A stretch of 35,245 nt of DNA, taken from contig JAAYKF010000036.1 in NCBI GenBank assembly GCA_012522535.1, positions 1 through 35,245 of the forward strand, read 5' to 3'. A program made the translations under genes and the position numbers. How positions within the stretch are numbered: position 1 is the first letter of the stretch; each line of letters opens with the position of its first letter. Positions 17,280 to 31,995 of the stretch are shown here, piece after piece. The notes under the pieces were generated by a model. The model did not search any database and was not told where the DNA came from. It was given only the letters and a program-made list of their open reading frames with translations. This DNA is from Bacteroidales bacterium (GTDB lineage: Bacteria; Bacteroidota; Bacteroidia; Bacteroidales; WCHB1-69).

Positions 17280-18755
17280 TTAATCTACATTATCGTGTAA
17301 GAATCTATTTTTCTTAATTTCAACACCGTTGTCATCTTTAGATTCAATGTCGAAACCGAAATCTAGCTCATCTGCGGAGCCAGAACCAATATTGATATTG
17401 ATGCCAGCACGAACAAAGGCAGGTGTGTTTTCATACTCTTCAACTCCAGCTTCTGTTCTAATTTTTGAATTCATTTTTCTAAGTTCACTTAGTTTTTCCA
17501 AATCGCTCATAGGGCTTTCATCTAGATATGGATTTGGAACTTTGTTGGGCTCCTGATTTGTGTCCTTGCTGACTACTTGTTGAACTTGATTTACGGTTTG
17601 CGTACCTCCAAAGTCTAAGTCTGTTCTTGGATTTTGCTGGACAGGACCTCCCATTGGCTCCTGTGGTGCACTCTCCTCAGATTTTACACTCACTGTAAAC
17701 TCATCATTATGTATTTGTTCAACTTCCCCTAAGGTATGTTGTTTAACTCTTGGTTTTGCCTCGGCTGGATTTATGGAGTCAAACCCAGTGGCAATAAGTG
17801 TTATTGAAATACTTTCGCCTAAATCATCGTCAGACGACAGTCCCCAAATAACATTAACATTTTCGCCTGCTGAGTCTGACACATAATCAGTAATTTCGGT
17901 CATTTCGTCCATCGTAACTTCATGTTCTGCTGAGGATGAAATATTTAGAAGTATATCTTTTGCTCCATAAATTTCATTGTCGTTTAGAAGAGGCGAAGTT
18001 AGGGCAGTTTGTATAGCTTCGATGGCTCTATTTTCGCCATTAGCGGTTCCTGCACCCATAATGGCAACTCCACTATCTTTCATAACGGTTTTCACATCTT
18101 CTAAGTCAACATTAACACTACCAACGTAGGTAATTAGCTCGGCTATGCTTTTGGCTGCTGTTGCCAGCACATCATCGGCTTTAGCAAAAGCTTCTGTCAT
18201 TTTCAAGCTTCCGTAATAATCGCGAAGTTTGTCGTTGCAGATAACCAAAAGTGCATCTACTTTATCTTTAATATTTGCAATTCCCTCTTGGGCAAATTGC
18301 AATTTTTTTCTTCCTTCGAAACCAAAAGGTATGGTAACAATTCCCACTGTGAGTATTCCCAATTCGCGAGCCACACTGGCTATAACTGGAGCTGCTCCAG
18401 TGCCAGTACCTCCGCCCATTCCAGCAGTGATGAATACCATTTCAGTATTATTTTCCAACTTCTCTTTTATGGCATCCACACTTTCCAAGGCTGCATCTCT
18501 TCCCACATCGGGAACAGAGCCAGCTCCAAGCCCTCTATTTCCCAAAGGGATTTTTACAGGCACTGGACTTGCATTAAGCGATTGTGCATCGGTGTTGCAC
18601 ACAATAAAATCTACACCCTTAATTCCCTGCCTAAACATGTGGTTTACGGCATTGCTGCCACCTCCACCAACACCAATAACTTTTATTAATGATGACTCGT
18701 TTATGGGTAAATTAAAGTTTAATATATCATCGTTTTGATCAAAATTCATAGTCAT
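17280..18755 (-). CDS. ftsZ: Cell division protein FtsZ
   Basis: This is the tubulin-like GTPase that forms the division ring. It is 491 aa, long because of the spacer between the GTPase domain and the tail, as in other Bacteroidota. VGGGGSNAVNHM (about 29-40) and the GTP-binding GGGTGTG (114-120) are intact. After the T7-like catalytic region comes a Pro/Gln-rich linker (about 340-430) and a conserved C-terminal FtsA-binding peptide ending RFLHDNVD. It is the last gene of the dcw cluster, 108 bases after ftsA. Translation may start at the first Met or at M3, 6 bases later. Confidence 0.97.
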   Translation of the reverse strand: MTMNFDQNDDILNFNLPINESSLIKVIGVGGGGSNAVNHMFRQGIKGVDFIVCNTDAQSLNASPVPVKIPLGNRGLGAGSVPDVGRDAALESVDAIKEKLENNTEMVFITAGMGGGTGTGAAPVIASVARELGILTVGIVTIPFGFEGRKKLQFAQEGIANIKDKVDALLVICNDKLRDYYGSLKMTEAFAKADDVLATAAKSIAELITYVGSVNVDLEDVKTVMKDSGVAIMGAGTANGENRAIEAIQTALTSPLLNDNEIYGAKDILLNISSSAEHEVTMDEMTEITDYVSDSAGENVNVIWGLSSDDDLGESISITLIATGFDSINPAEAKPRVKQHTLGEVEQIHNDEFTVSVKSEESAPQEPMGGPVQQNPRTDLDFGGTQTVNQVQQVVSKDTNQEPNKVPNPYLDESPMSDLEKLSELRKMNSKIRTEAGVEEYENTPAFVRAGININIGSGSADELDFGFDIESKDDNGVEIKKNRFLHDNVD

Positions 18756-18863: not shown

Positions 18864-20159
18864 CTACTTATACTCCTCGCCTCTATCGCCAAATAAATTT
18901 TCAAAAATCTTTTTCACTCCCTCTCCTGTTAATTTTCGAGATTTGCCTTCGGTTTTTCTTTTCTTTTTATCGACTTGAGTATTATTTTCCACCTCTTCTG
19001 CATCATCTTCAATCATCAATGCCTGAAGTGCCAAACCTATACTTGTTGAGTAGATTGGTGAATTCAAATCCTGTATTGATTTTTCTGAAATATAATCTGT
19101 TGGGAAACCAATTCTAACACTCATACCTGTGGTAAACTCAGTTAACTCCTTTATATGTTTTATCAGGGCTCCACCACCTGTTAGCACTATTCCTGCTATG
19201 AGCTTATCTTCATATCCACTATTTTTTATTTCCACAGCCACCTGTCCTAAAATTTCCTGAACTCTTGATTGTATGATGCTTGCCAAACTGTGCATGGAGA
19301 TTTCGCGTGGGTTGTGCCCCCTAATACCAGGTATGGTAATAATTTCGTCTTGGCGATTTTGGTTAGACAAGCATGAACCATATTTCACCTTCAATTTTTC
19401 GGCCTGCGACCTAATTATCATACAGCCCTCTTTTATATCTTCGGTGATAATATTTCCTCCAAAGGGAATTACTGCCGTATGACGAACTATATTATCGTGG
19501 ATAACTGCCACATCAGTTGTGCCACCGCCTATATCAACCAAAACAACTCCTGCCTCTTTTTCTTCATCGTCCAAAACTGCATTTGCCGATGCCAAAGGCT
19601 CTAAAATTAGCTCCTTGATGTCGCAATTCACTCTATTTACACATTCATAAATATTTCTAACAGCATTTACATTTCCTGTAATTATATGAAAATTTGCCGC
19701 CAGCTCACTGCCTATCATTCCCACTGGATTGGAGGTAACGGGATTGCTATCGATGAAATATTCTTGTGTTATAACACTCACAATTCTTTCGCCGGGGCGA
19801 GTGTTTATTTTCCACATATTATCTTTGAGCTTTTCAACATCTTCTTTGGAAATTTCTTCTTGATTATTGGACCTTACAATGTTGCCCCTATGTTGCGTAC
19901 TGCGGATATGCTGACCAGCTATCCCAACAACAACTTCGGAAATTTCGACATTGGATTTTATTTCCGACTCTTTTAGGGCTGCTCCAATGGTTGTTACGGC
20001 TTCTTGCAAATTTGCAATCTGACCACGATGAATTCCAGCAGCTTCCGTTTTTGAAAAACCAAGTACCTCTAACTTGCCATCTTTGTTGGACTGACCTACT
20101 ATTACAGCTACCTTGGTGGTACCGATATCTAAACCTACTACAATTTTTGAATCTGACAT
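18864..20159 (-). CDS. ftsA: Cell division protein FtsA
   Basis: This actin-like ATPase tethers FtsZ filaments to the membrane and recruits later divisome proteins. It is 431 aa. The phosphate-1 motif VGLDIGTTKVAVIVG (about 8-22), phosphate-2 VLVDIGGGTTDVAVI and adenosine motif GIVLTGGGALIKHIKEL are all present. A basic C-terminal segment (KKRKTEGKSRK) precedes a short helix, KIFENLFG, that fits the membrane-targeting role. It follows ftsQ with a 7-base gap. Confidence 0.96.
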   Translation of the reverse strand: MSDSKIVVGLDIGTTKVAVIVGQSNKDGKLEVLGFSKTEAAGIHRGQIANLQEAVTTIGAALKESEIKSNVEISEVVVGIAGQHIRSTQHRGNIVRSNNQEEISKEDVEKLKDNMWKINTRPGERIVSVITQEYFIDSNPVTSNPVGMIGSELAANFHIITGNVNAVRNIYECVNRVNCDIKELILEPLASANAVLDDEEKEAGVVLVDIGGGTTDVAVIHDNIVRHTAVIPFGGNIITEDIKEGCMIIRSQAEKLKVKYGSCLSNQNRQDEIITIPGIRGHNPREISMHSLASIIQSRVQEILGQVAVEIKNSGYEDKLIAGIVLTGGGALIKHIKELTEFTTGMSVRIGFPTDYISEKSIQDLNSPIYSTSIGLALQALMIEDDAEEVENNTQVDKKKRKTEGKSRKLTGEGVKKIFENLFGDRGEEYK

Positions 20160-20166
20160 AACTATA

Positions 20167-20961
20167 CTATTTACGTGTACAAACTACTTGATTAATATAT
20201 TTTAAATTTATTGTTTTATATTTATCCCAACCTACCATCTGAAAACCCTGGGTGTATAATGTTTCCAAATTTTGGAATTTTATTTCTAAATTATCAATAT
20301 CGCCCAAAATTATCAACTGCTCGCCTATTAGCGGAATAAGCTCTATCTCCAAATTTTCTGTTACGATAATTTGGTCTATTTGGGCACTCAAAAAAATATT
20401 TTGACGAATGTATGAGGCAAGTTTCCAAACTTTATAAAGTGCCAACTCATGAAAATTCCTGGGACTTTTGAAACTTCTACCACTATAAACGCTGTCAATT
20501 TCTTGATTTATTTCGCCAGAAACGACTATCAAATGCTCAATATCAATATTTGAAAGTGGCATTAATTTACACTCGCTGGTTAAATAATAAGAATCTCCTT
20601 TTTTATTAAAAACCCTTGCTATGGGCTCTTTTTGGTCGATATTAACCTCCACAATTCCGTTTAGTCCCAAAGAGACTTGAGCTTTGTGAATATAAGGATT
20701 GCTTTCCAAAACTTTTCGGATTTTTCCAACTTCGATATCTGAATAAACTGTGTTATTCAAATCGGGATAAATATTTCTTATCTCTCTTTCAATTTCAATT
20801 TCGCTGATAAATTTACTTGCGTCATTGTATGAAATCACAACCTTAACACCCTTGCAATATTGTTTGCCATGAGAGAATATTGTATAGGCAACACCTATGA
20901 GCAAAAGTGCAACAACTATAATTCCAAATATTCTTTTTTTCTTCATATTAAACTGTTTCAA
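20167..20961 (-). CDS. ftsQ: Cell division protein FtsQ
   Basis: This bitopic inner-membrane divisome protein has a short basic cytoplasmic start, one membrane segment (IFGIIVVALLLIGVAYTIF) and then an extracytoplasmic POTRA domain with ISEIEIEREIRNIYP and the KVLESNPYIHKAQVSL pattern. It is 264 aa from ATG 20961, which would overlap murC by 14 bases. M6 (20946, MKKKRIFGI) begins right after the murC stop and is an equally good start. It matches the family weakly in sequence, as usual for FtsQ, but fold pattern and position between murC and ftsA make the call firm. Confidence 0.88.
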   Translation of the reverse strand: MKQFNMKKKRIFGIIVVALLLIGVAYTIFSHGKQYCKGVKVVISYNDASKFISEIEIEREIRNIYPDLNNTVYSDIEVGKIRKVLESNPYIHKAQVSLGLNGIVEVNIDQKEPIARVFNKKGDSYYLTSECKLMPLSNIDIEHLIVVSGEINQEIDSVYSGRSFKSPRNFHELALYKVWKLASYIRQNIFLSAQIDQIIVTENLEIELIPLIGEQLIILGDIDNLEIKFQNLETLYTQGFQMVGWDKYKTINLKYINQVVCTRK

Positions 20962-22304: not shown

Positions 22305-23408
22305 CTACTTTTTGGTTTCAAATATTACGTTTACAATATCATTTAGAGCATCTTTATGAGCAAATTTCAAGATGTTTTCAGAAAGATTTTCAAGCTTTTC
22401 AGCATCATTCAAAGTGTCAATCATCAAATTGGGTAATAGATGAATTGCATCGCTATCTTTCAACATTATTGCAGCATCTTTGTCTGCCAACACCTTAGCA
22501 TTTTTGGTTTGATGGTCGCCCGACACATTAGGTGATGGGACTAAAATTGTTGGTTTTCCGAGGCAAGCCAATTCTGATATTGACAATGCTCCAGCTCTTG
22601 AAACCACCAAATCAGCCACCGAATAAAGGTAATCCATTCTGTCCACAAAGGGCATTATTTTGATATTTTCGCTGGCTTTTGAAGCCAAGTCAAACTCTTT
22701 GTAATATCTTTCGCCAGTTTGCCAAACAAGCTGAACATCAGCCAGTTCAAACTTTTCCAACGAAGCACCCAAGCTTATATTCAAAGTTTTTGCTCCCAAG
22801 CTACCTCCAATAACAGCCACACATTTTTTGTCGGGGTTGAGCTTGAAATATTCGTAAGCCTTTGGATTTTTCATTTCTGTTTTCAATAAATCTGCTCTGA
22901 TGGGATTTCCGGTTAGCACCATTTTTTCTTTGGAGAAATATTTATCTGTTTCTTCATAAGCCACACAAATTTTGTCTGCTTTTTTGGCAAGCATTCTATT
23001 TGTTGCACCGGGGAAGGAGTTTTGTTCTTGCAGAATTGTTGGAATTTTCATCATTGCAGCCATTTTTAGACTGGGACCACTGGCATATCCACCAACACCA
23101 ATTACCGCATTAGGCTTGAATTTTCGTATTACCTTATATGCTTTAATCATGCTCCACAACAACTTGAAGGGGAAAGTTGTATTTCTATAAATATTTTTCA
23201 GATTTACTTTTCTCTGAAAACCAGCCACAGGAAGTCCAACAATATCGTAACCTGCATTGGGGACTCTTTTCATTTCCATTCGTCCTTTGGCACCAATAAA
23301 CAAAATTTCTGCCAAAGGCTCACGCTTTTTAATTCCATTGGCAATAGCTATTGCTGGAAAAATATGTCCACCAGTTCCACCGCCACTAATTATAAATTTA
23401 CTGCTCAT
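22305..23408 (-). CDS. murG: UDP-GlcNAc:lipid I N-acetylglucosaminyltransferase
   Basis: This is a peripheral inner-membrane GT-B glycosyltransferase that turns lipid I into lipid II. It is 367 aa with the N-terminal GGGTGGHIFPA (9-19), a second glycine-rich loop (VIGGSLGAKTLN) and the C-terminal VVSRAGALSISELACLGKP that binds UDP-GlcNAc. It overlaps ftsW by 11 bases, implying translational coupling. Confidence 0.96.
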   Translation of the reverse strand: MSSKFIISGGGTGGHIFPAIAIANGIKKREPLAEILFIGAKGRMEMKRVPNAGYDIVGLPVAGFQRKVNLKNIYRNTTFPFKLLWSMIKAYKVIRKFKPNAVIGVGGYASGPSLKMAAMMKIPTILQEQNSFPGATNRMLAKKADKICVAYEETDKYFSKEKMVLTGNPIRADLLKTEMKNPKAYEYFKLNPDKKCVAVIGGSLGAKTLNISLGASLEKFELADVQLVWQTGERYYKEFDLASKASENIKIMPFVDRMDYLYSVADLVVSRAGALSISELACLGKPTILVPSPNVSGDHQTKNAKVLADKDAAIMLKDSDAIHLLPNLMIDTLNDAEKLENLSENILKFAHKDALNDIVNVIFETKK

Positions 23409-24603
23409 CTTCGTCCTCCTTTTTGATATTTGTTTTTCTGTTTTCTGTCCTTCTTACCTGATTTTCACTATGTTCCTCTTCGTTTTCAATCTCTTTGCTC
23501 ACGCTAAGTAGAATCCCAAAGGAGATACTAGTAAACCAAAACGATGAACCTCCCATACTCACCAAGGGCAAGGGCTGACCCGTTACCGGACCCAAACCAA
23601 CTGCCACTGCCATATTTATCATTGCTTGTAACACTATAATAAATGTAATTCCTATGGCAATATAGGCTCCAAAAGAGCCGGGAGCCCGAATGGCAATCCT
23701 AATGCCACGGTAGAGAAGAACCATATATAAAACCAAGATTAGCACTCCGCCAATGGGACCATATTCTTCCACTATAATTGCAAAAATGAAATCGGAATAG
23801 GGGTGTGGAAGGAAATTTCTTTGGGTACTTTTTCCGGGACCTTTACCCAATGGATATCCGCTGGCAATGGCTATTTTAGACTGCTCTTTTTGATAGTTTT
23901 TCTCTACATTTTCAGTATCGCTGTGATTTACAACACGATTTACCCATGTGGCAACCCTTGACGATTTTGACACATTCATCAAAACAACAGATACCGTGAA
24001 CATCAACAAAACCGTCAGCCCTGCGAGTTTGAGCATATGCTTAATTTTCACCTGACTAACAAAAAACATCACTGCCCAGGTGGCAATCATAAGTATTGCG
24101 GTGGAGAGGTTTGCTGGGAAAATTAAAAGAATAACAATTGCCAAAACTATTGCCACTGGCAATATCCCTTTTTTGAAATCGTCTAATATATCTTGATTTT
24201 TACGCAAATAAAAGGCTAAATAGACTATGCTTACAATTTTGGCTATATCCGAGGGTTGAATTGTGAGTTTTAAGATGGGTATCATCACCCATCTACTGGC
24301 TTCGTTGTAGGATGAGCCAGAGAAAATTGTATAAACAAGTAGCGGTATAACTGCATACATGGCTAATTTTGAAAAACGCCCATAAAAGGTGTAATTCACC
24401 AGATGTGACAGATACATCAGCAATAGACCAAAAATCATATAGCTAAAATGGCGAAGAAAATAATACTCTGTATTTCCTGCCTGCTTGCTATATGCCAATG
24501 CTCCTGTTGAGCTATAAACAGCTAACATAGAGATAAAAGAGAGTAGCAAAACTACTATCCAAATGGCTTTATCTCCCTTGACCTTATTTAACAATTTTGC
24601 CAT
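23398..24603 (-). CDS. ftsW: Septal peptidoglycan polymerase FtsW (SEDS family)
   Basis: This is a polytopic membrane glycosyltransferase that works with FtsI. It is 401 aa with about ten hydrophobic segments and the SEDS signature GYPLGKGPGKSTQRN, then LPHPYSDFIFAIIVEEYG, and the late loop GQPLPLVSMGGSS. The cytoplasmic tail is unusually charged (about the last 35 residues: SENQVRRTENRKTNIKKEDE). It lies 6 bases after the murD remnant. Confidence 0.95.
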   Translation of the reverse strand: MAKLLNKVKGDKAIWIVVLLLSFISMLAVYSSTGALAYSKQAGNTEYYFLRHFSYMIFGLLLMYLSHLVNYTFYGRFSKLAMYAVIPLLVYTIFSGSSYNEASRWVMIPILKLTIQPSDIAKIVSIVYLAFYLRKNQDILDDFKKGILPVAIVLAIVILLIFPANLSTAILMIATWAVMFFVSQVKIKHMLKLAGLTVLLMFTVSVVLMNVSKSSRVATWVNRVVNHSDTENVEKNYQKEQSKIAIASGYPLGKGPGKSTQRNFLPHPYSDFIFAIIVEEYGPIGGVLILVLYMVLLYRGIRIAIRAPGSFGAYIAIGITFIIVLQAMINMAVAVGLGPVTGQPLPLVSMGGSSFWFTSISFGILLSVSKEIENEEEHSENQVRRTENRKTNIKKEDEDEQ

Positions 24604-24609
24604 AATTTT

Positions 24610-25158
24610 TTATAATTCCGTTATTTCTGCCTTAAAGGCGTTGCCTCTATCTTCATAATTTTCGAACAAATCGAAGCTGGGATTTGCTGGCGACAACAGA
24701 ACCACATCTCCTTTTTGAGCCGAATAATATGCCTTTGTTACTGCATCAGACATATTATCAGTTTCTATAATTGTGGGTATAACCCCTTTGAAAGAGCGAA
24801 TTAGGTTTTCATTGTCCACACCCAAGCAAATCAACATTTTCACTTTTTGCTGAACCAGCTCCATAAGCGAAGAGTAGTCGTTGCCTTTGTCAACACCACC
24901 TGCAATCCAAATAATGGGCTTGTTGATGGAGCCAAGGGCATACCAAGTTGAATTTACTTTTGCCGACTTAGAATCGTCAATAAAGTCAACTCCACGAATG
25001 GTTGTTACATGTTCTAATTTGTGCTCAACGCCTTCGAATCCTGCAAAACTCTCACGAATATTAGCCTTTCGAACATCCTCCAATCTGGTTTGAATTGATG
25101 CTGCCATGCTACTTTGTCTGTACTGTTTCCCCTGAAGTGCTAAATTTTCGATTGTCAT
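24610..25158 (-). CDS. murD: MurD remnant: C-terminal ligase domain only, probably non-functional
   Basis: MurD adds D-glutamate to UDP-MurNAc-L-Ala and is normally about 440 aa in three domains. Here the frame is 182 aa and starts at a Met (MTIENLALQGKQ) that sits well inside full-length MurD. The UDP-binding and ATPase domains, including the P-loop, are missing, and only 37 bases separate it from mraY, so nothing is hidden upstream. Conserved C-terminal motifs are also altered: HR-LE reads HKLE (46-49), NDSKATN reads DDSKSAK (61-67, losing the usual Thr and Asn), and SPACASFD reads SPANPSFD (156-163). GGVDKG (87-92) and NYEDRGNAF (167-175) remain. This looks like deletion followed by decay, or reuse of the lone domain. 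A full-length MurD must exist elsewhere if standard peptidoglycan is made. Assembly deletion alone would not explain the motif changes. Confidence 0.8.
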   Translation of the reverse strand: MTIENLALQGKQYRQSSMAASIQTRLEDVRKANIRESFAGFEGVEHKLEHVTTIRGVDFIDDSKSAKVNSTWYALGSINKPIIWIAGGVDKGNDYSSLMELVQQKVKMLICLGVDNENLIRSFKGVIPTIIETDNMSDAVTKAYYSAQKGDVVLLSPANPSFDLFENYEDRGNAFKAEITEL

Positions 25159-25195
25159 TTTTATATATTTTTTGTTTTGTTACTCTGTTTATTTC

Positions 25196-26446
25196 TTATC
25201 TAACTTTCAATGTTATTACTGTAAAAACAGCCAACATTATTCCTATAATCATAAATCGCATCACTATTTTCGACTCGTGATATCCTTTTTTCTGATAGTG
25301 GTGATGAAGTGGCGACATAAGGAATATTCTGCGTCCTTCGCCATATTTTTTCTTGGTGAATTTAAACCAGCTAACCTGTAATATTACCGAAATTGATTCT
25401 GCCAAAAATATTCCACACAATATGGGAATTAGCAGCTCTTTGCGGATAATTATGGCAAAAACTGCAATTATTCCACCTAAGGTAAGGCTTCCCGTATCTC
25501 CCATAAAAACTTGTGCCGGAAAAGTGTTGTACCACAAAAAGCCAATGGTGGCACCCACAAAGGCACTTATAAATATTGCCAGCTCGCCCAGCATTGGTAT
25601 ATACATGATATTCAGGTAGTTGGCAAAAACAATATTACCCGAAACATATGCCAAAACTCCCAATGTGGCTCCAATTATGGCAGAAGTTCCCGTTGCCAAG
25701 CCATCAATTCCATCGGTGAGATTGGCTCCATTGGAAACAGCCGTAATTATAAAAATCACAATGGGTATGAAGATTAAGAACCCCCATTTTTGATAATCAT
25801 CACCCAAAAATTTTAATACTGCCGAATAGTCTAACTCATTGTTTTTTAAAAATGGTATTGTGGTCTTAGTTGACCTAACAGACTCATATTTAGGCAAGTC
25901 GGGATTTGTTTTGCTATCAAATCTAAACATTTCATTGGCTTCAACATGGCTATCCATGGTAACCTTTTCTTTTATCACAATATCGGGATGGAAGAACATT
26001 ACCGAGCCAACAACTATTCCCAAAGCCACCTGTCCAACAACCTTAAATTTGCCACTCAAACCTTTTTTGTCTTTTTTGAATGACTTGATATAATCATCAA
26101 TAAACCCAAGAATACCCAACCAAATGGTGGTGAATATCATAAGTTGGATATAAATATTTGTCAAATTGGCGAACAATAATACTGGAACTAATATTGCTAA
26201 AATTATGATTAAGCCACCCATTGTTGGAGTGCCCTCTTTTTTCATCTGCCCTTCTAATCCCAAATCGCGGATAGACTCCCCTACCTGCTTGAGTTTCAGA
26301 TAATTGATAATCCTTTTCCCAGTTATCATTGATATAAAAAGCGATGTAATTACAGCAGCTGCTGCACGGAAAGAGATATATTGGAACAAGCCCGATCCGG
26401 GGAAGCTATAAGCACTGTCTAACCAATCAAATAGGTGATAAAGCAT
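25196..26446 (-). CDS. mraY: Phospho-MurNAc-pentapeptide translocase MraY
   Basis: This integral membrane enzyme joins UDP-MurNAc-pentapeptide to undecaprenyl phosphate, giving lipid I. It is 416 aa, longer than the E. coli enzyme because of a periplasmic insert (around 175-220, common in Bacteroidota). Signatures are [45 protein letters not shown] and [11 protein letters not shown]. About ten membrane helices are apparent. It lies 3 bases after murE. Immediately downstream is the truncated murD. Confidence 0.97.
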
Positions 26447-26449
26447 AAT

Positions 26450-27907
26450 TTATTTTTTTAATTGTTTTTCTAATTCTTCTTTGTCGTCGAAGTGATGTCT
26501 CACTCCTTTTATTTCTTGATATTTTTCATGTCCTTTTCCAGCCACCAAAATCACATCTCCTTTTTGAGCCAAAATAGTGGCAGTTTTTATGGCCTCTCTT
26601 CTGTTTTCGATGGTCAAGTATTGTTTTTGCGAGTCTGCTGGAATTCCTGCTTGCATCTGTTCCAATATTTCCATTGGGTCTTCATGGCGAGGATTGTCTG
26701 ATGTCATAATCAGCACATCGCTCATATCGTGAGCAATGCGAGCCATTATGGGGCGTTTTTCTGCATCACGATTTCCACCACAGCCCACCACGGTAATAAT
26801 TCTTTCGCCTGCCTGACGTATATCTTCTATGGTTTCCAAAACATTTTCCAAGGCATCGGGAGTGTGGGCATAATCTACAATGGCAACTATTTCTGAGTTA
26901 TTTTCCACATAATCAAATCTGCCCTCGGCTGTTTTCAGATTGCTAAGCTCTGTTAAAACCTCCATTTTGTCAAATTTGCAAAGCAATGCCACGGCATATA
27001 CAGATATAATATTGTATGCATTAAATTCACCCACTAAGTTGAAATACGCCTCAACCCCATCTATATTAAGGTGCAAGCCCGAAAAAGCATTTTCAATTAT
27101 TTTAACCCTAAAATCGGCCATGGAGCGGGCACTATAATAATGTTTTGTTGCCTTTGTATTTTGAAGCATCACTTGCCCATTTCTATCATCTAAATTACTG
27201 AGGGCAAAGGCATTAGCCGGCAGATTATCAAAAAACTCTTTTTTAGCTTTTAGGTATGCATCAAAGGTTTTATGATAGTCTAAATGGTCGTGGCTTAGAT
27301 TGGTAAAAACGCCAGCAGCAAAGCTCAAGCCCGATATGCGTTTTTGGGTAACACTGTGGGAGCTAACTTCCATAAAGCAGAAATCGCAACCCTGAGCTAA
27401 CATCTGTGATAGAAGCTCATTGAGTGCCACCGAATCGGGTGTAGTGTGAGTTGATGGAATAACTTTGTCGGCTATACGGTTTTCAACCGTAGAAATCAAT
27501 CCGCATCTGTAACCTAAATTTGTAAATAGATTATACAATAAACTAACGCTGGTGGTTTTTCCATTTGTACCTGTGATGCCAATTAGCTTTAAATCTTCCG
27601 AAGGATTGTCATAATAATTTGAAGCTAAAAGACCCAATGTTTCGGAGCTGTCGGCTACTTTTATATAGGTAATATTATCCTTTATTTCAGTTGGCAAATC
27701 CTCACAAACAACCACTGATGCACCAGATTCGATTGCTTTTTCAATAAATATATGTCCGTCAACTTGTGTGCCTTTTTGAGCAAGATACAAAGATGACTTG
27801 GCAACTTTTCTGGAGTCGAAACAGATGGACGAAATTTGCACATCTTCGCTTCCTATAAGCTCCAAATAGGGAACATCATAAATTATATCTTGCAATCTCT
27901 TCATCAT
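26450..27907 (-). CDS. murE: UDP-MurNAc-L-Ala-D-Glu ligase MurE (meso-DAP type)
   Basis: This cytosolic Mur ligase adds the third peptide residue. It is 485 aa and complete, with P-loop GITGTNGKTTS at about 110-120 and VDYAHTPDALENVL. The motif DNPRHEDP is the DNPR signature for meso-diaminopimelate, so the peptidoglycan is predicted to be DAP type. Its ATGA overlaps the ftsI stop by 4 bases. Confidence 0.96.
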   Translation of the reverse strand: MMKRLQDIIYDVPYLELIGSEDVQISSICFDSRKVAKSSLYLAQKGTQVDGHIFIEKAIESGASVVVCEDLPTEIKDNITYIKVADSSETLGLLASNYYDNPSEDLKLIGITGTNGKTTSVSLLYNLFTNLGYRCGLISTVENRIADKVIPSTHTTPDSVALNELLSQMLAQGCDFCFMEVSSHSVTQKRISGLSFAAGVFTNLSHDHLDYHKTFDAYLKAKKEFFDNLPANAFALSNLDDRNGQVMLQNTKATKHYYSARSMADFRVKIIENAFSGLHLNIDGVEAYFNLVGEFNAYNIISVYAVALLCKFDKMEVLTELSNLKTAEGRFDYVENNSEIVAIVDYAHTPDALENVLETIEDIRQAGERIITVVGCGGNRDAEKRPIMARIAHDMSDVLIMTSDNPRHEDPMEILEQMQAGIPADSQKQYLTIENRREAIKTATILAQKGDVILVAGKGHEKYQEIKGVRHHFDDKEELEKQLKK

Positions 27908-30177
27908 TGTTGTTGATTTTTATAATTTTCTTCTATGGATTTAATTGAGTCGGCAACAATTGCACTTACAATTGAGTCGTTGGCTATATATGTTTTTGTA
28001 AACGAATGCTCCTTCATTCCAAGTTGTAATTTTATTTCCGAACCTTTAGTTAGCTCTGTACCTGGCAATATAGATTGCGAAACAACATGTCCTCTACCAT
28101 TTATTTTTGCCACATAGCCATGCTTTTCAACTAAGAAAACTGCATCCTTAGCTCCCATTCCTCTCAAATCGGGAACTACTCCTTTTTTATACCCCACAGA
28201 TTTCAGTCGAACTGTGTTGGCAATTGTAGAGCCCGAGCTTACCCAACCTGAACTTTTATTATCTGTAAATGTCTTATAGTTCAAGTAGTTATAAACCGTT
28301 TGAATATCCTTTTGATTTCCTGCTTGGATTAGAGGAATATTTTTTATTCTGATGCTATCATGCTGATTTTTAGGAATATCAATCTCCATAGCATAAACTT
28401 TATTGGCAATTTCGCGGAAAACTGGCACAGCAATTTCGGCACCATAAAACCCTCTTTCTCGCGGATTATTTATCATTATAATGCAGGTATATTTAGGATT
28501 ATCGGCAGGAAAATATCCTATAAAAGAGGCTGTATATTCCACATTACGACCTTCTCCTTTTATATTTCCATACCCACTTCCACCCTTGGCAATTTGGGCT
28601 GTTCCTGTTTTACCAGCAATGGTATAAACCTCGTTGGACAACCTTCGTGCAGTACCATGTGTTACTACCGACTCCATACAAACCTTAACTTTATCAATGG
28701 TTGACTGGGAACAAATTTTTTCGTTTAAAACCACAGGTTCAAACTCCTTTTCCACTCTTCCTGCCTGCTTAATGTGGGTTACAAATTGTGGCTTAACCAT
28801 TTTACCGTCATTGGCTACTGCATTATAAAGAGTTAGCAGTTGGAGGGGTGTCATTTTCACCTCATAGCCTATTGACATCCACGGAAGTGTTGTTGCCGAC
28901 CAGCCCTGAGTTTTATAGTCTTTAATTAGTGGTTGACCCTCTCCCTGAATTTCAACGCCAAGTTTTTCACCAACACCCATTTTTTTAATCAAATCCACAA
29001 AATCTTGTGGACGATTTCCAAAAACTTTAGTAACAGCCCTTGCTATCCCCACGTTGGACGACACCTCGAAGGCTCTTGCCAATGAAACATTTCCATAACC
29101 ATACTCATAGGAGTCTTTCATTTCGAAACTTCCAAACCTCACTTTGCCCGTGGGAACAAGCTCATTGGTGTCTATGCTCCCATCTTCTAAAAGAGCTATT
29201 AAAGAAATAAGCTTAAAGGTTGAACCCGGCTCCAAGCTTTCCCAAATGGCAAAGTTCATATCTTCGCCATAGGAGCCATCACTGCGGCGTTTGAGGTTTG
29301 CAATAGCTTTTATTTGCCCTGTTTTAACCTCCATAAGAACAGCACAACCATGGTCTGACTTTGTTGAGTCTAACTGTTTTAGCAAGGCACTTTCGGCTAC
29401 ATCTTGCACTCCTATATTTATTGTTGTAACAATGTCGTTCCCATTTTGGGGCTCAATTTGGTTCTCCTCCGTAAGGGGACGCCAAGCACCACCTCTGAGC
29501 TTTTGCTCCACTCGCTGACCATCTACACCTTTTAGCTCATCGCTATAGGCTCCTTCAAGTCCAACAAACAATTTGTTTATTTCATTACCCTCGTCGTCCC
29601 AAATAACTTGCTCATACCCAATTGTTCGGTGAGCCAAAAGACGATATGGCATTTTGCGAATACTCTTTTGTTCAACTATGAAACCACCTCTATTTTGACC
29701 TCTTCTAAAAATTGGGAATTTTTTGATTTTCTTTAAGTCGGTATATGAAATTTGATCCTTCTCTCTACGAATGTTTGAGAATTTCACTCTGTAATATCTA
29801 TTCCCTTTTTGCTTGGCTTCCACAAAAGCATTTTTATACTCTTGAGCTGATTTATCTTTAAAATGAGCAGAGAGATAAATGGCTAAGGAGTCAATATCCT
29901 TCTCGAAAATAGAATCAGGGCAAACCTGCGAATCCCAATAAAGGTCGAAAACAGGGAATGATGTTGCCAATAAACTTCCATCATCAGAATAAATATTTCC
30001 TCTGGCAGCCTCAATGGTTCTAATTCTCACATTACGCTCTTGGTCAATTTCTCTATACTCCTCGCCCAAAGCTATCTGTATATAAAACATTTTATACAAT
30101 ATTCCAATGGCTAAAACTAGCATTGCAAAATACATAATGCCCGAACGTATCATCAACTGACTGCTCTGTTTATTCAT
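27904..30177 (-). CDS. ftsI: Septal transpeptidase FtsI (PBP3-like) with PASTA domain
   Basis: This bitopic class B penicillin-binding protein cross-links septal peptidoglycan with FtsW. It is 757 aa: a membrane segment near 12-31, a pedestal region, then the transpeptidase domain with STFK (319-322, S319 nucleophile), SSN (373-375) and KTGT (523-526). A C-terminal PASTA domain lies at about 675-740 (GVVPDLRGMGAKDAVFLVEK, then VVSQSILPGTELTKGSEI), normal for Bacteroidota but not for enterics. It overlaps ftsL by 8 bases and murE by 4. Confidence 0.96.
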   Translation of the reverse strand: MNKQSSQLMIRSGIMYFAMLVLAIGILYKMFYIQIALGEEYREIDQERNVRIRTIEAARGNIYSDDGSLLATSFPVFDLYWDSQVCPDSIFEKDIDSLAIYLSAHFKDKSAQEYKNAFVEAKQKGNRYYRVKFSNIRREKDQISYTDLKKIKKFPIFRRGQNRGGFIVEQKSIRKMPYRLLAHRTIGYEQVIWDDEGNEINKLFVGLEGAYSDELKGVDGQRVEQKLRGGAWRPLTEENQIEPQNGNDIVTTINIGVQDVAESALLKQLDSTKSDHGCAVLMEVKTGQIKAIANLKRRSDGSYGEDMNFAIWESLEPGSTFKLISLIALLEDGSIDTNELVPTGKVRFGSFEMKDSYEYGYGNVSLARAFEVSSNVGIARAVTKVFGNRPQDFVDLIKKMGVGEKLGVEIQGEGQPLIKDYKTQGWSATTLPWMSIGYEVKMTPLQLLTLYNAVANDGKMVKPQFVTHIKQAGRVEKEFEPVVLNEKICSQSTIDKVKVCMESVVTHGTARRLSNEVYTIAGKTGTAQIAKGGSGYGNIKGEGRNVEYTASFIGYFPADNPKYTCIIMINNPRERGFYGAEIAVPVFREIANKVYAMEIDIPKNQHDSIRIKNIPLIQAGNQKDIQTVYNYLNYKTFTDNKSSGWVSSGSTIANTVRLKSVGYKKGVVPDLRGMGAKDAVFLVEKHGYVAKINGRGHVVSQSILPGTELTKGSEIKLQLGMKEHSFTKTYIANDSIVSAIVADSIKSIEENYKNQQQ

Positions 30178-30628
30178 TGCTCAATGTATCAGGGTTAAAA
30201 ACTAATTTATAAGGTGGTTTGTTATTGTCGTGAATTCCGATGGTACTAAGCTTTTGCATTATGGTTGACTCGCGAAGGCTGTCCATCATATCAGCCTTAC
30301 TGGAAATAAACTCATAACGTAGCTCGATAAGGTCTCGTTTAGACTGTTCCAATTTTATCATTGTTTTCTCCGAAGAGTAGTTCAAATAGATATATGTAAT
30401 TGAGATTGCAAGAAGTAAAAACAGAAAAGGAATATTCTTTATAAACTTTTTATGTGTCAAAAATGAACCTTCAAAAATCGAAAAAAACATCCTGCCCACA
30501 TAAGCAATACCTTTTTCCTTGTGGCTAGTCTTTTTGGGGCGAGAAGACTTTTTCTTTGACGTAGATTCTCCCGTCTCTGCTTGCCCATTTTCGTCAAATA
30601 AATCTTTATTACTTTTTAGTCGATTCAT
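30170..30628 (-). CDS. ftsL: FtsL-like divisome protein
   Basis: This 152-aa bitopic membrane protein has a long basic cytoplasmic N-terminus (KKKSSRPKKTSHKEK), one membrane segment (about 85-103, IPFLFLLLAISITYIYLNY) and a periplasmic coiled-coil-like part (KTMIKLEQSKRDLIELRYEF). FtsL is poorly conserved in sequence. The call rests on topology and position between rsmH and ftsI. In other bacteria it joins FtsB and FtsQ to activate FtsWI. Confidence 0.82.
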   Translation of the reverse strand: MNRLKSNKDLFDENGQAETGESTSKKKSSRPKKTSHKEKGIAYVGRMFFSIFEGSFLTHKKFIKNIPFLFLLLAISITYIYLNYSSEKTMIKLEQSKRDLIELRYEFISSKADMMDSLRESTIMQKLSTIGIHDNNKPPYKLVFNPDTLSNE

Positions 30629-30629
30629 A

Positions 30630-31541
30630 TTATAATTTTTCTGCTATTCTTAATTTTGCACTTCGTGCTCTATTATTTTGTTCAATCTCTTCTGCTGCCG
30701 GCACTATTGGTTTTTTACTAATAAGTTTAAATGGAGTAATTATATTTCCGTACATATCTTTCTCAATTTCGCCATTAAAATTTCCGCTTCTGAAAAAGTT
30801 TTTCACCAATCTATCCTCTAATGAGTGATACGATATTATGGACAGTCTTCCGCCTGGTCTCAGCATCTCTAAAGCCTGCTCTAACATAGATTTCAGAACC
30901 CCCATTTCGTCATTAACTTCAATTCGGAGAGCTTGTAGAATACGAGCAAAATAGCTATTCTCTTTTCCTCTTGGGGCAAAGTTTGCAAATGCTTCCGTTA
31001 TATCAGAAATGTTTTCAAAAACTCTCTCTTGGCGAATATTTGCAATATGTTTTGCCATTCTTCTCGACTCTCGGAAATCGCCATAATTGTACAAGATATT
31101 AGCTATTTCTTCCTCTTCATAGCTATTCAAAACATCGGCTCCTGTGCTTGATCTTCTGTTATCCATTCTCAGATCAATGGGACCATCAAAGCGAATAGAA
31201 AAACCTCTTTCGGCAACGTCAAACTGATGCGACGAAACACCTAAGTCTGCCAATAGACCATCTATGGCATCACATTGGCTAAATTTTAAAAAGTTTGACA
31301 AATAGGAAAAATTAGAGTTGAAAAGAGTAAATCTTTCATCATCAATGGTGTTTGCCAAAGCATCAGAATCTTGGTCAAAGGCAAAGAGTTTGCCCTCGTT
31401 CAACCTTGATAAAATCTCACGCGAGTGCCCACCACTGCCAAATGTAACATCTACATAAACTCCATTGGGATTTATATTCAATGCCTCTACAGACTCTGTT
31501 AGCAGCACCGGCTTATGATATGTTTGTCTCTTTTTCTCCAT
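30630..31541 (-). CDS. rsmH: 16S rRNA (cytosine-1402-N4)-methyltransferase RsmH
   Basis: This SAM-dependent enzyme (MraW) methylates C1402 in the ribosomal decoding centre. It is 303 aa with the SAM motif YVDVTFGSGGHS (29-40), then FAFDQDSDAL, LLADLGVSSHQFDVAERGFS, LQALRIEVNDE and SYHSLEDRLVKNFF, all typical. It overlaps the mraZ end by 29 bases, and its start is supported by the N-terminal YHKPVLLTESVEAL. Confidence 0.96.
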   Translation of the reverse strand: MEKKRQTYHKPVLLTESVEALNINPNGVYVDVTFGSGGHSREILSRLNEGKLFAFDQDSDALANTIDDERFTLFNSNFSYLSNFLKFSQCDAIDGLLADLGVSSHQFDVAERGFSIRFDGPIDLRMDNRRSSTGADVLNSYEEEEIANILYNYGDFRESRRMAKHIANIRQERVFENISDITEAFANFAPRGKENSYFARILQALRIEVNDEMGVLKSMLEQALEMLRPGGRLSIISYHSLEDRLVKNFFRSGNFNGEIEKDMYGNIITPFKLISKKPIVPAAEEIEQNNRARSAKLRIAEKL

Positions 31542-31995
31542 TTGCTTTTTGAACCATTACCTCTTCAGCCAAACTAGCAAAATCACGAGGCTCGTCAGAA
31601 AGCAAGTTTTCGTAACTACTCTTATCCCAAACTTCAATACGATTTGAATACGCAAAAAGAACTATCTCTTTGGTAGCTCCTGCATACTCCAACAAATTTT
31701 TGGGTATCAGAAAACGATTGTTTGCGTCAAGCTCTAGCATACTCGCTCCACGCATAAAGTAGCGGAAAAAGTCTCGATTGTTTTTGCTAAATAAATTCAA
31801 CTTATTGAGCTCCTGACTGATTAAATCCCACTCTGTTTTGGGGTATATGACAAGACATTTCTCGAAACCACGATTTATGACAAAGGTATTTTGCGACTCA
31901 GCCGGAATCTGCTTTTTAAGTGCAGATGGCATCATCACACGACCCTTGGCGTCGAGTTTGCAATCATATTCTCCCATTAGACTAATCACTGACAT
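31513..31995 (-). CDS. mraZ: Transcriptional regulator MraZ
   Basis: This is the first dcw gene and encodes a DNA-binding repressor of the cluster. It is 160 aa with two SpoVT/AbrB-like halves: GEYDCKLDAKGRVMMPSALK at 8-27 and LELDANNRFLIPKNLLEYAG in the second half, each with the DxxxR pattern. It likely represses its own promoter by binding the three GTGG repeats 45-70 bases upstream. Confidence 0.95.
   Translation of the reverse strand: MSVISLMGEYDCKLDAKGRVMMPSALKKQIPAESQNTFVINRGFEKCLVIYPKTEWDLISQELNKLNLFSKNNRDFFRYFMRGASMLELDANNRFLIPKNLLEYAGATKEIVLFAYSNRIEVWDKSSYENLLSDEPRDFASLAEEVMVQKANGEKETNIS

Follow-up and report, generated by a model that had tools for sequence, protein, structure and literature searches.

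The locus studied here raises the question of why a dcw operon should keep only the last third of an essential ligase gene. In a 35,245-nucleotide stretch of DNA from a Bacteroidales bacterium, hereafter called the window, the place between mraY and ftsW is taken by an open reading frame that corresponds to the C-terminal part of MurD (Table 1); the genome to which this contig belongs has 2.45 Mb, is 96% complete and comprises 194 contigs. Based on the comparisons set out below we propose, with a probability of about 0.6, that the C-terminal domain of MurD outlived the enzyme: catalysis would have been taken over by MurD2 and MurL, the original gene would have been truncated repeatedly, and the domain left behind would serve a putative docking or structural role derived from the ancestral MurD.

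Table 1. Genes and other features of the dcw operon in the window
Feature	Position	Strand	Basis
ftsZ	17280-18755	-	translation judged by eye
ftsA	18864-20159	-	translation judged by eye
ftsQ-like gene	20167-20961	-	translation judged by eye
murC, complete, 457 aa	20948..22321	-	translation
murG, complete, synteny query	22305..23408	-	translation
ftsW, neighbour downstream	23398..24603	-	sequence and profile match
Stand-alone MurD C-terminal domain, 182 aa	24610..25158	-	profile matches, AlphaFold2 model, Foldseek
Gap in place of the deleted N-terminal domain and most of the central domain	25159..25195	.	37 bases, A/T rich
mraY, neighbour upstream	25196..26446	-	sequence and profile match
murE, complete, 485 aa	26450..27907	-	translation and murE-type match
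ftsI-type PBP	27904-30177	-	translation judged by eye
Small ftsL-like ORF	30170-30628	-	translation judged by eye
mraW/rsmH	30630-31541	-	translation judged by eye
mraZ	31513-31995	-	translation judged by eye

The lone MurD domain of the window

The predicted protein aligns with the murD profile TIGR01087 only over columns 263-438, scoring 165 bits and thus falling short of the cut-off of 212 bits, and its sole Pfam match is to Mur_ligase_C (PF02875, 44.9 bits, cut-off 28.4). By these matches it is a homologue of the MurD glutamate-ligase domain, comprising what was the final helix of the central domain and the whole of the third, glutamate-ligase domain, without the UDP-binding N-terminal domain and the P-loop-bearing central domain of a three-domain MurD. 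The MurD of a sister genome has 445 aa, so that about 260 residues are missing from the window copy. The AlphaFold2 model has a mean pLDDT of 83.8, with values mostly of 86-98 over residues 51-182 and lower ones in the N-terminal helix, and MurD structures rank first when it is used as a Foldseek query (E about 1e-13).

The end of mraY lies 37 bases before the ATG of the lone domain and ftsW starts 6 bases past its stop codon. A coding remnant of the N-terminal half of MurD was looked for in the 37-base gap and none was found; homologous gaps are present at the same spot in relatives. An earlier note on this DNA, made from the letters alone, had described a murD reduced to its C-terminal domain, with about 260 residues absent, mraY ending close upstream, complete MurC and MurE, and the altered motifs DDSKSAK, SPANPS and HK in place of NDSKATN, SPACAS and HR, and all of this is borne out; canonical Bacteroidales MurDs have the latter three motifs. 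The window copy retains 68% of the catalytic set of the C-terminal domain. Because it has lost the HN of GKHN, the Arg of HR and the UDP-binding and P-loop domains, it should not be able to act as a ligase alone.

Probable replacement of the catalytic function by MurD2 and MurL

Among all murD-like places in the window genome there is one other MurD, of full length (307 bits, contig C118), and no orphan N-terminal half. The C118 gene lies directly downstream of a MurL homologue that matches the profile NF041275 with E = 4e-73 over 393 positions and 246 bits, the equivalog cut-off of 700 being fitted to Xanthomonadales, and a search of the window genome for murI (glutamate racemase) found none. 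In Xanthomonas, MurD2 adds L-Glu, which MurL then inverts (PMC8788868, Ogasawara and Dairi); the L-specificity is set by Glu197 and Arg358 of MurD2, equivalent to Asp182 and Lys348 of E. coli MurD, and an E. coli MurD with Lys319 changed also accepts L-Glu (PMC8788868). The C118 protein has Glu and Arg at the E. coli 182 and 348 positions, with QEH and DRG standing in for PDH and DKG, and with murL adjacent and murI absent we regard it as a MurD2. The same L-Glu-type residues (D182E, K348R and K319I relative to E. coli MurD) occur in the MurD2s of 18 of 18 genomes, the window genome included. The arrangement thus resembles the Xanthomonas system (XOO_1320/XOO_1319; PMC8788868, PMC5808125) in the adjacent murL-murD2 pair, the lack of murI and the L-Glu-specifying residues, and differs from it in the Bacteroidales host, in the NF041275 score relative to the Xanthomonadales cut-off and in the occurrence of some MurL-MurD2 and MurD2-MurB fusions. 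MurL/MurD2 or MurL orthologues have been described from Gammaproteobacteria, Alphaproteobacteria and actinobacteria, with low-similarity orthologues in a fungus, cyanobacteria and an amoeba; Bacteroidetes are not among the groups named in these two papers (PMC8788868, PMC5808125).

Judging from the gene content and the L-Glu-type residues, the stem-peptide D-Glu is probably made via MurD2 and MurL in the window genome. The earlier note had offered another MurD, a split MurD or an unusual peptide stem as ways out for the cell: the first is found in the MurD2 of C118, the second fails for want of an N-terminal half, and the third is not required, because MurL would restore D-Glu.

Across the order, a MurD2/MurL-type pathway occurs in 43 of the 119 genera sampled from Bacteroidales, one of the 43 being a weak partial match, and MurI (over its cut-off) and MurL never co-occur, whether among 60 relatives or in the 119-genome sample. 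MurL and MurD2 are fused in single ORFs, MurL first, in G113 (L305, 764-3394(-), 876 aa) and G141 (L306, 808-3621(-), 937 aa), which supports the view that they form a functional pair. A further fusion, of MurD2 with a C-terminal MurB (FAD_binding_4 and MurB_C), is seen in G035 (L070, 1663-3927(-)), and G008 has a similar longer MurD2 ORF (L071, 1171-3180(-)).

Full-length dcw murD is kept in 24 MurL genomes, in three of which it could be read only partly, at contig ends. These MurDs have their P-loop, metal-binding and D-Glu residues all intact; the loci L139-L157 (for example in G060, G074 and G117) represent genomes with MurL and without MurI that carry such a catalytically intact, D-Glu-type dcw MurD. 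The idea that they are dead enzymes was rejected on this full conservation of the active site. The full-length dcw murD evolves faster in MurL genomes.

Distribution of the lone domain

The lone domain was found in 48 genomes from 32 genera and 17 families, each time with mraY on one side and ftsW on the other; its length is 176-194 aa in the 40 genomes measured (181-187 in most), and its spacing from ftsW in relatives ranges from a few to tens of bases, with some overlaps. Because 48 independently assembled genomes share the gene, misassembly and decay specific to one genome are excluded, and the deletion is genuine, as the earlier note had argued. An assembly or deletion artefact, to which the fragmentation into 194 contigs might have pointed, is refuted by the recurrence of the same structure with graded divergence in dozens of independent assemblies, and we assign it a negligible probability.

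MurL was detected in 44 of the 48 genomes, the other four being three 65-75% complete assemblies of one family (f1) and the genome G049, discussed below. Within f1 the lone domain is present in every genome readable beyond mraY except G014 and G027, which keep a full-length murD. A normal murD with the altered motifs of the window copy was looked for in the closest full-length relatives, G014 and G027, which instead have NDSKATN, SPACAS and HR. Outside f1, the majority of MurL genomes have MurD2 and MurL together with a full-length dcw MurD and no lone domain. G111 is the sole MurL genome seen with neither form beside mraY, an ApbE-like lipoprotein gene (L166, 372-1373(-)) following mraY in place of murD and ftsW; an apparent sequence identity between G111 and a Flavobacteriales contig failed confirmation by blastn. 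Another relative, G047, shares sequence with a named record and could thereby be placed in Bacteroidales. Where the lone domain is most divergent within f1, FtsW is unusually divergent as well, being about 27-35% identical to that of the window, and mraY, murE and murG are far less so.

Repeated truncation to a common domain

In a tree built from mraY, ftsW, murE and murG of 91 genomes, the MurL genomes are monophyletic (SH-aLRT 100), and the distribution of the lone state within and beside this clade entails 12 changes, at least 8 of them forced by well-supported branches. A topology that unites every lone genome of the MurL clade in a single group was rejected (AU p 9.4e-6), which excludes a single truncation followed by vertical descent. 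Within the MurL clade, full-length murD was thus cut back to this domain on at least about eight occasions, with one further case, G049, outside it. The window domain is sister to the C-terminal domain of the full-length G014/G027 MurD (support 99, 71% identity) and only about 32-47% identical to the other f1 lone domains, which argues that its truncation was an event of its own. Regain of full-length murD from MurI-type donors is not favoured, since the MurL-clade MurDs and lone domains group in both whole-MurD and C-domain trees and the MurDs share R298K, with the caveat that the tree of the N-terminal part alone is poorly resolved and that G079 is an outlier. Relaxation of the N-terminal half before truncation was likewise unsupported (N/C ratio 1.11 versus 1.06, p 0.28).

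Most lone genes begin at a homologous Met, residue 264 in the reference MurD; in the older f1 copies the start lies nearby. Across the order, full-length MurDs have this Met in 92% of the MurI-type and 96% of the MurL-clade cases, and it might therefore be supposed that the ancestral Bacteroidales murD already yielded a separate domain from it, truncation having removed the long form only. Phylum-wide, however, M predominates at this position and the remaining cases are I, L, V or C, a pattern expected of a strand residue that is buried, so that its conservation need not mean a translation start. No special support was found for a dedicated internal start; as the position is kept hydrophobic and also offers the closest start codon in frame, the shared start is in part dictated by what was available, and we consider prior production of the short form improbable, at somewhat under one chance in ten.

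Constraint and catalytic decay

In pairwise comparisons the lone genes have dN/dS values of 0.06-0.31 and their neighbours values of roughly 0.02-0.12, and purifying selection thus persists in a domain that has lost catalytic residues. Measured against mraY, the evolutionary rate of the domain is 1.62 when alone and 0.84 within full-length MurD, and this about twofold acceleration indicates looser constraint than on the enzyme. The adenine-site Asn is kept in 15% of the lone domains and the equivalent of Lys348 (E. coli number) in 12%. By contrast with this erosion, Asp317 (E. coli number) is found in all, Glu312 and Trp347 (reference numbering) in 97% each, and Val369, Ala402 and Phe438 (reference numbering) in all; in the numbering of the window protein the invariant residues are E49, D62, W84, V106, A139 and F175. 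A pseudogene on its way to loss would account for the degraded motifs and the faster evolution, but dN/dS well below 1, an open frame of near-constant length in 48 genomes of 17 families and its presence throughout the readable f1 genomes bar G014 and G027 already largely refute it, and we hold it very unlikely. What had looked like decay private to one genome is instead a recurrent and selectively maintained state.

Retention of the catalytic set is graded by lineage, from 95% in G039 and G073 down to 21% in G068 and G105. As some lone domains keep 95%, motif loss follows truncation and is not its cause. These well-preserved active sites, and the near confinement of the lone domain to MurL genomes within the sample, could also suggest a trans-acting subunit or regulator of MurD2/MurL, which might bind MurD2 or sense Glu-bearing intermediates via the old glutamate site. 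We view this as unlikely, though less so than the other alternatives, because the Glu site has decayed in older lineages, the window genome encodes the lone domain far from MurD2/MurL, and, outside f1, the majority of MurL genomes run the pathway beside a full-length dcw MurD instead.

G049 bears on the same point. This 98% complete genome lies outside the MurL clade, and a lone domain occupies the place between its mraY and ftsW. Searches of it for MurI, for MurL and for a full-length MurD found none of them, the only Mur ligases detected being a MurC/Mpl-like ligase, MurE and MurF. In its dcw operon murC is gone entirely and murG leads directly to an ftsQ-like gene. As G049 keeps the lone domain in the absence of MurL, though it has lost murC, retention is neither tied to MurL nor a matter of mere operon inertia. 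The same operon contains a tandem pair of FtsZ-like genes (L307, 3447-6058(+)).

Tight spacing before ftsW, such as the 6 bases in the window, would also be expected if translation or RNA of the remnant served to coordinate ftsW translation or expression of the operon, the protein being idle. Purifying selection at the amino-acid level, invariant residues, constant boundaries and a well-predicted fold speak against such a remnant, for which a short leader would do, and G049 dropped murC from the operon leaving no piece; we put its probability at only about one in ten.

A proposed role for the domain

We envisage the following course of events, the first three steps of which are seen in the sequences. 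An ancestor of a large Bacteroidales clade acquired MurD2 and MurL and lost murI. With MurD2 ligating, the UDP- and ATP-binding parts of dcw murD were deleted repeatedly and independently, each deletion sparing the ~182 terminal codons, read in frame from the same pre-existing Met, between mraY and ftsW. The remaining domain has stayed under purifying selection with its predicted fold kept, while ATP- and Glu-site residues were lost. Because the domain is selected and folded and yet has lost its catalytic residues, we infer that the C-terminal domain of the ancestral MurD had a second, ligase-independent job that the lone protein inherited, most likely docking in a cytoplasmic assembly of Mur proteins, MraY, MurG and FtsW that would couple precursor synthesis to division. 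The lone domain itself would then be non-catalytic and act by binding. A structural or regulatory use, for which the earlier note had left room, is the best fit.

Among the operon genes tested, ftsW has the strongest rate covariation with the C-terminal domain (partial r 0.37, p 6e-4), a modest signal that is weaker than that between murE and murG and has p = 0.056 in the lone-only branches; in the full-length-only branches murE matches ftsW. Thermotoga MurD has been reported to bind MurG and MreB (PMC6420597), and Mur synthetases of M. tuberculosis to contact FtsW, FtsZ and FtsQ (PMC3605390). These contacts, together with the ftsW covariation, favour a docking or structural role, and point weakly to FtsW as the first candidate partner of the lone domain.

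Comparison with known systems

The lone domain shares with full-length MurD a homologous last third, the operon position and the predicted fold, and is unlike it in having neither a UDP-binding nor a P-loop domain. Other cases are known in which Mur ligase homologues work as parts of complexes. PAP11, the plastid MurE-like protein of the plastid-encoded RNA polymerase, is a Mur ligase repurposed as a structural subunit outside its own pathway; it is a whole ligase of another family in another complex, whereas the lone domain is a single domain in its original division operon. In MurT/GatD a Mur-ligase-like protein forms a complex with one other protein and acts on precursors of peptidoglycan, but MurT, unlike the lone MurD domain, retains its ATPase domain. 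A search of the open-licence literature turned up no account of a MurD domain that stands alone; an earlier mention elsewhere is possible.

Implications

That an essential MurD was replaced by a bypass, yet its last third was kept repeatedly at the same place and with the same cut, suggests a second, non-enzymatic job. More tentatively, at somewhat less than even odds, Bacteroidales MurD, and perhaps bacterial MurD generally, may be a two-function protein that combines glutamate ligation with a separable, important role of its C-terminal domain in division or cell-wall synthesis. If so, this second role would have been exposed once MurD2/MurL took over catalysis and the enzyme was repeatedly deleted around the domain, in ligases that are standard drug targets and are viewed as single-purpose enzymes. 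The at least about eight independent deletions ending at the same domain would represent a natural deletion series for the indispensable part of MurD, and the long-standing proposal that Mur proteins and divisome form a complex would become directly testable via one small protein. The MurD2/MurL-type pathway of Bacteroidales is also relevant to inhibitors directed at MurI or MurD.
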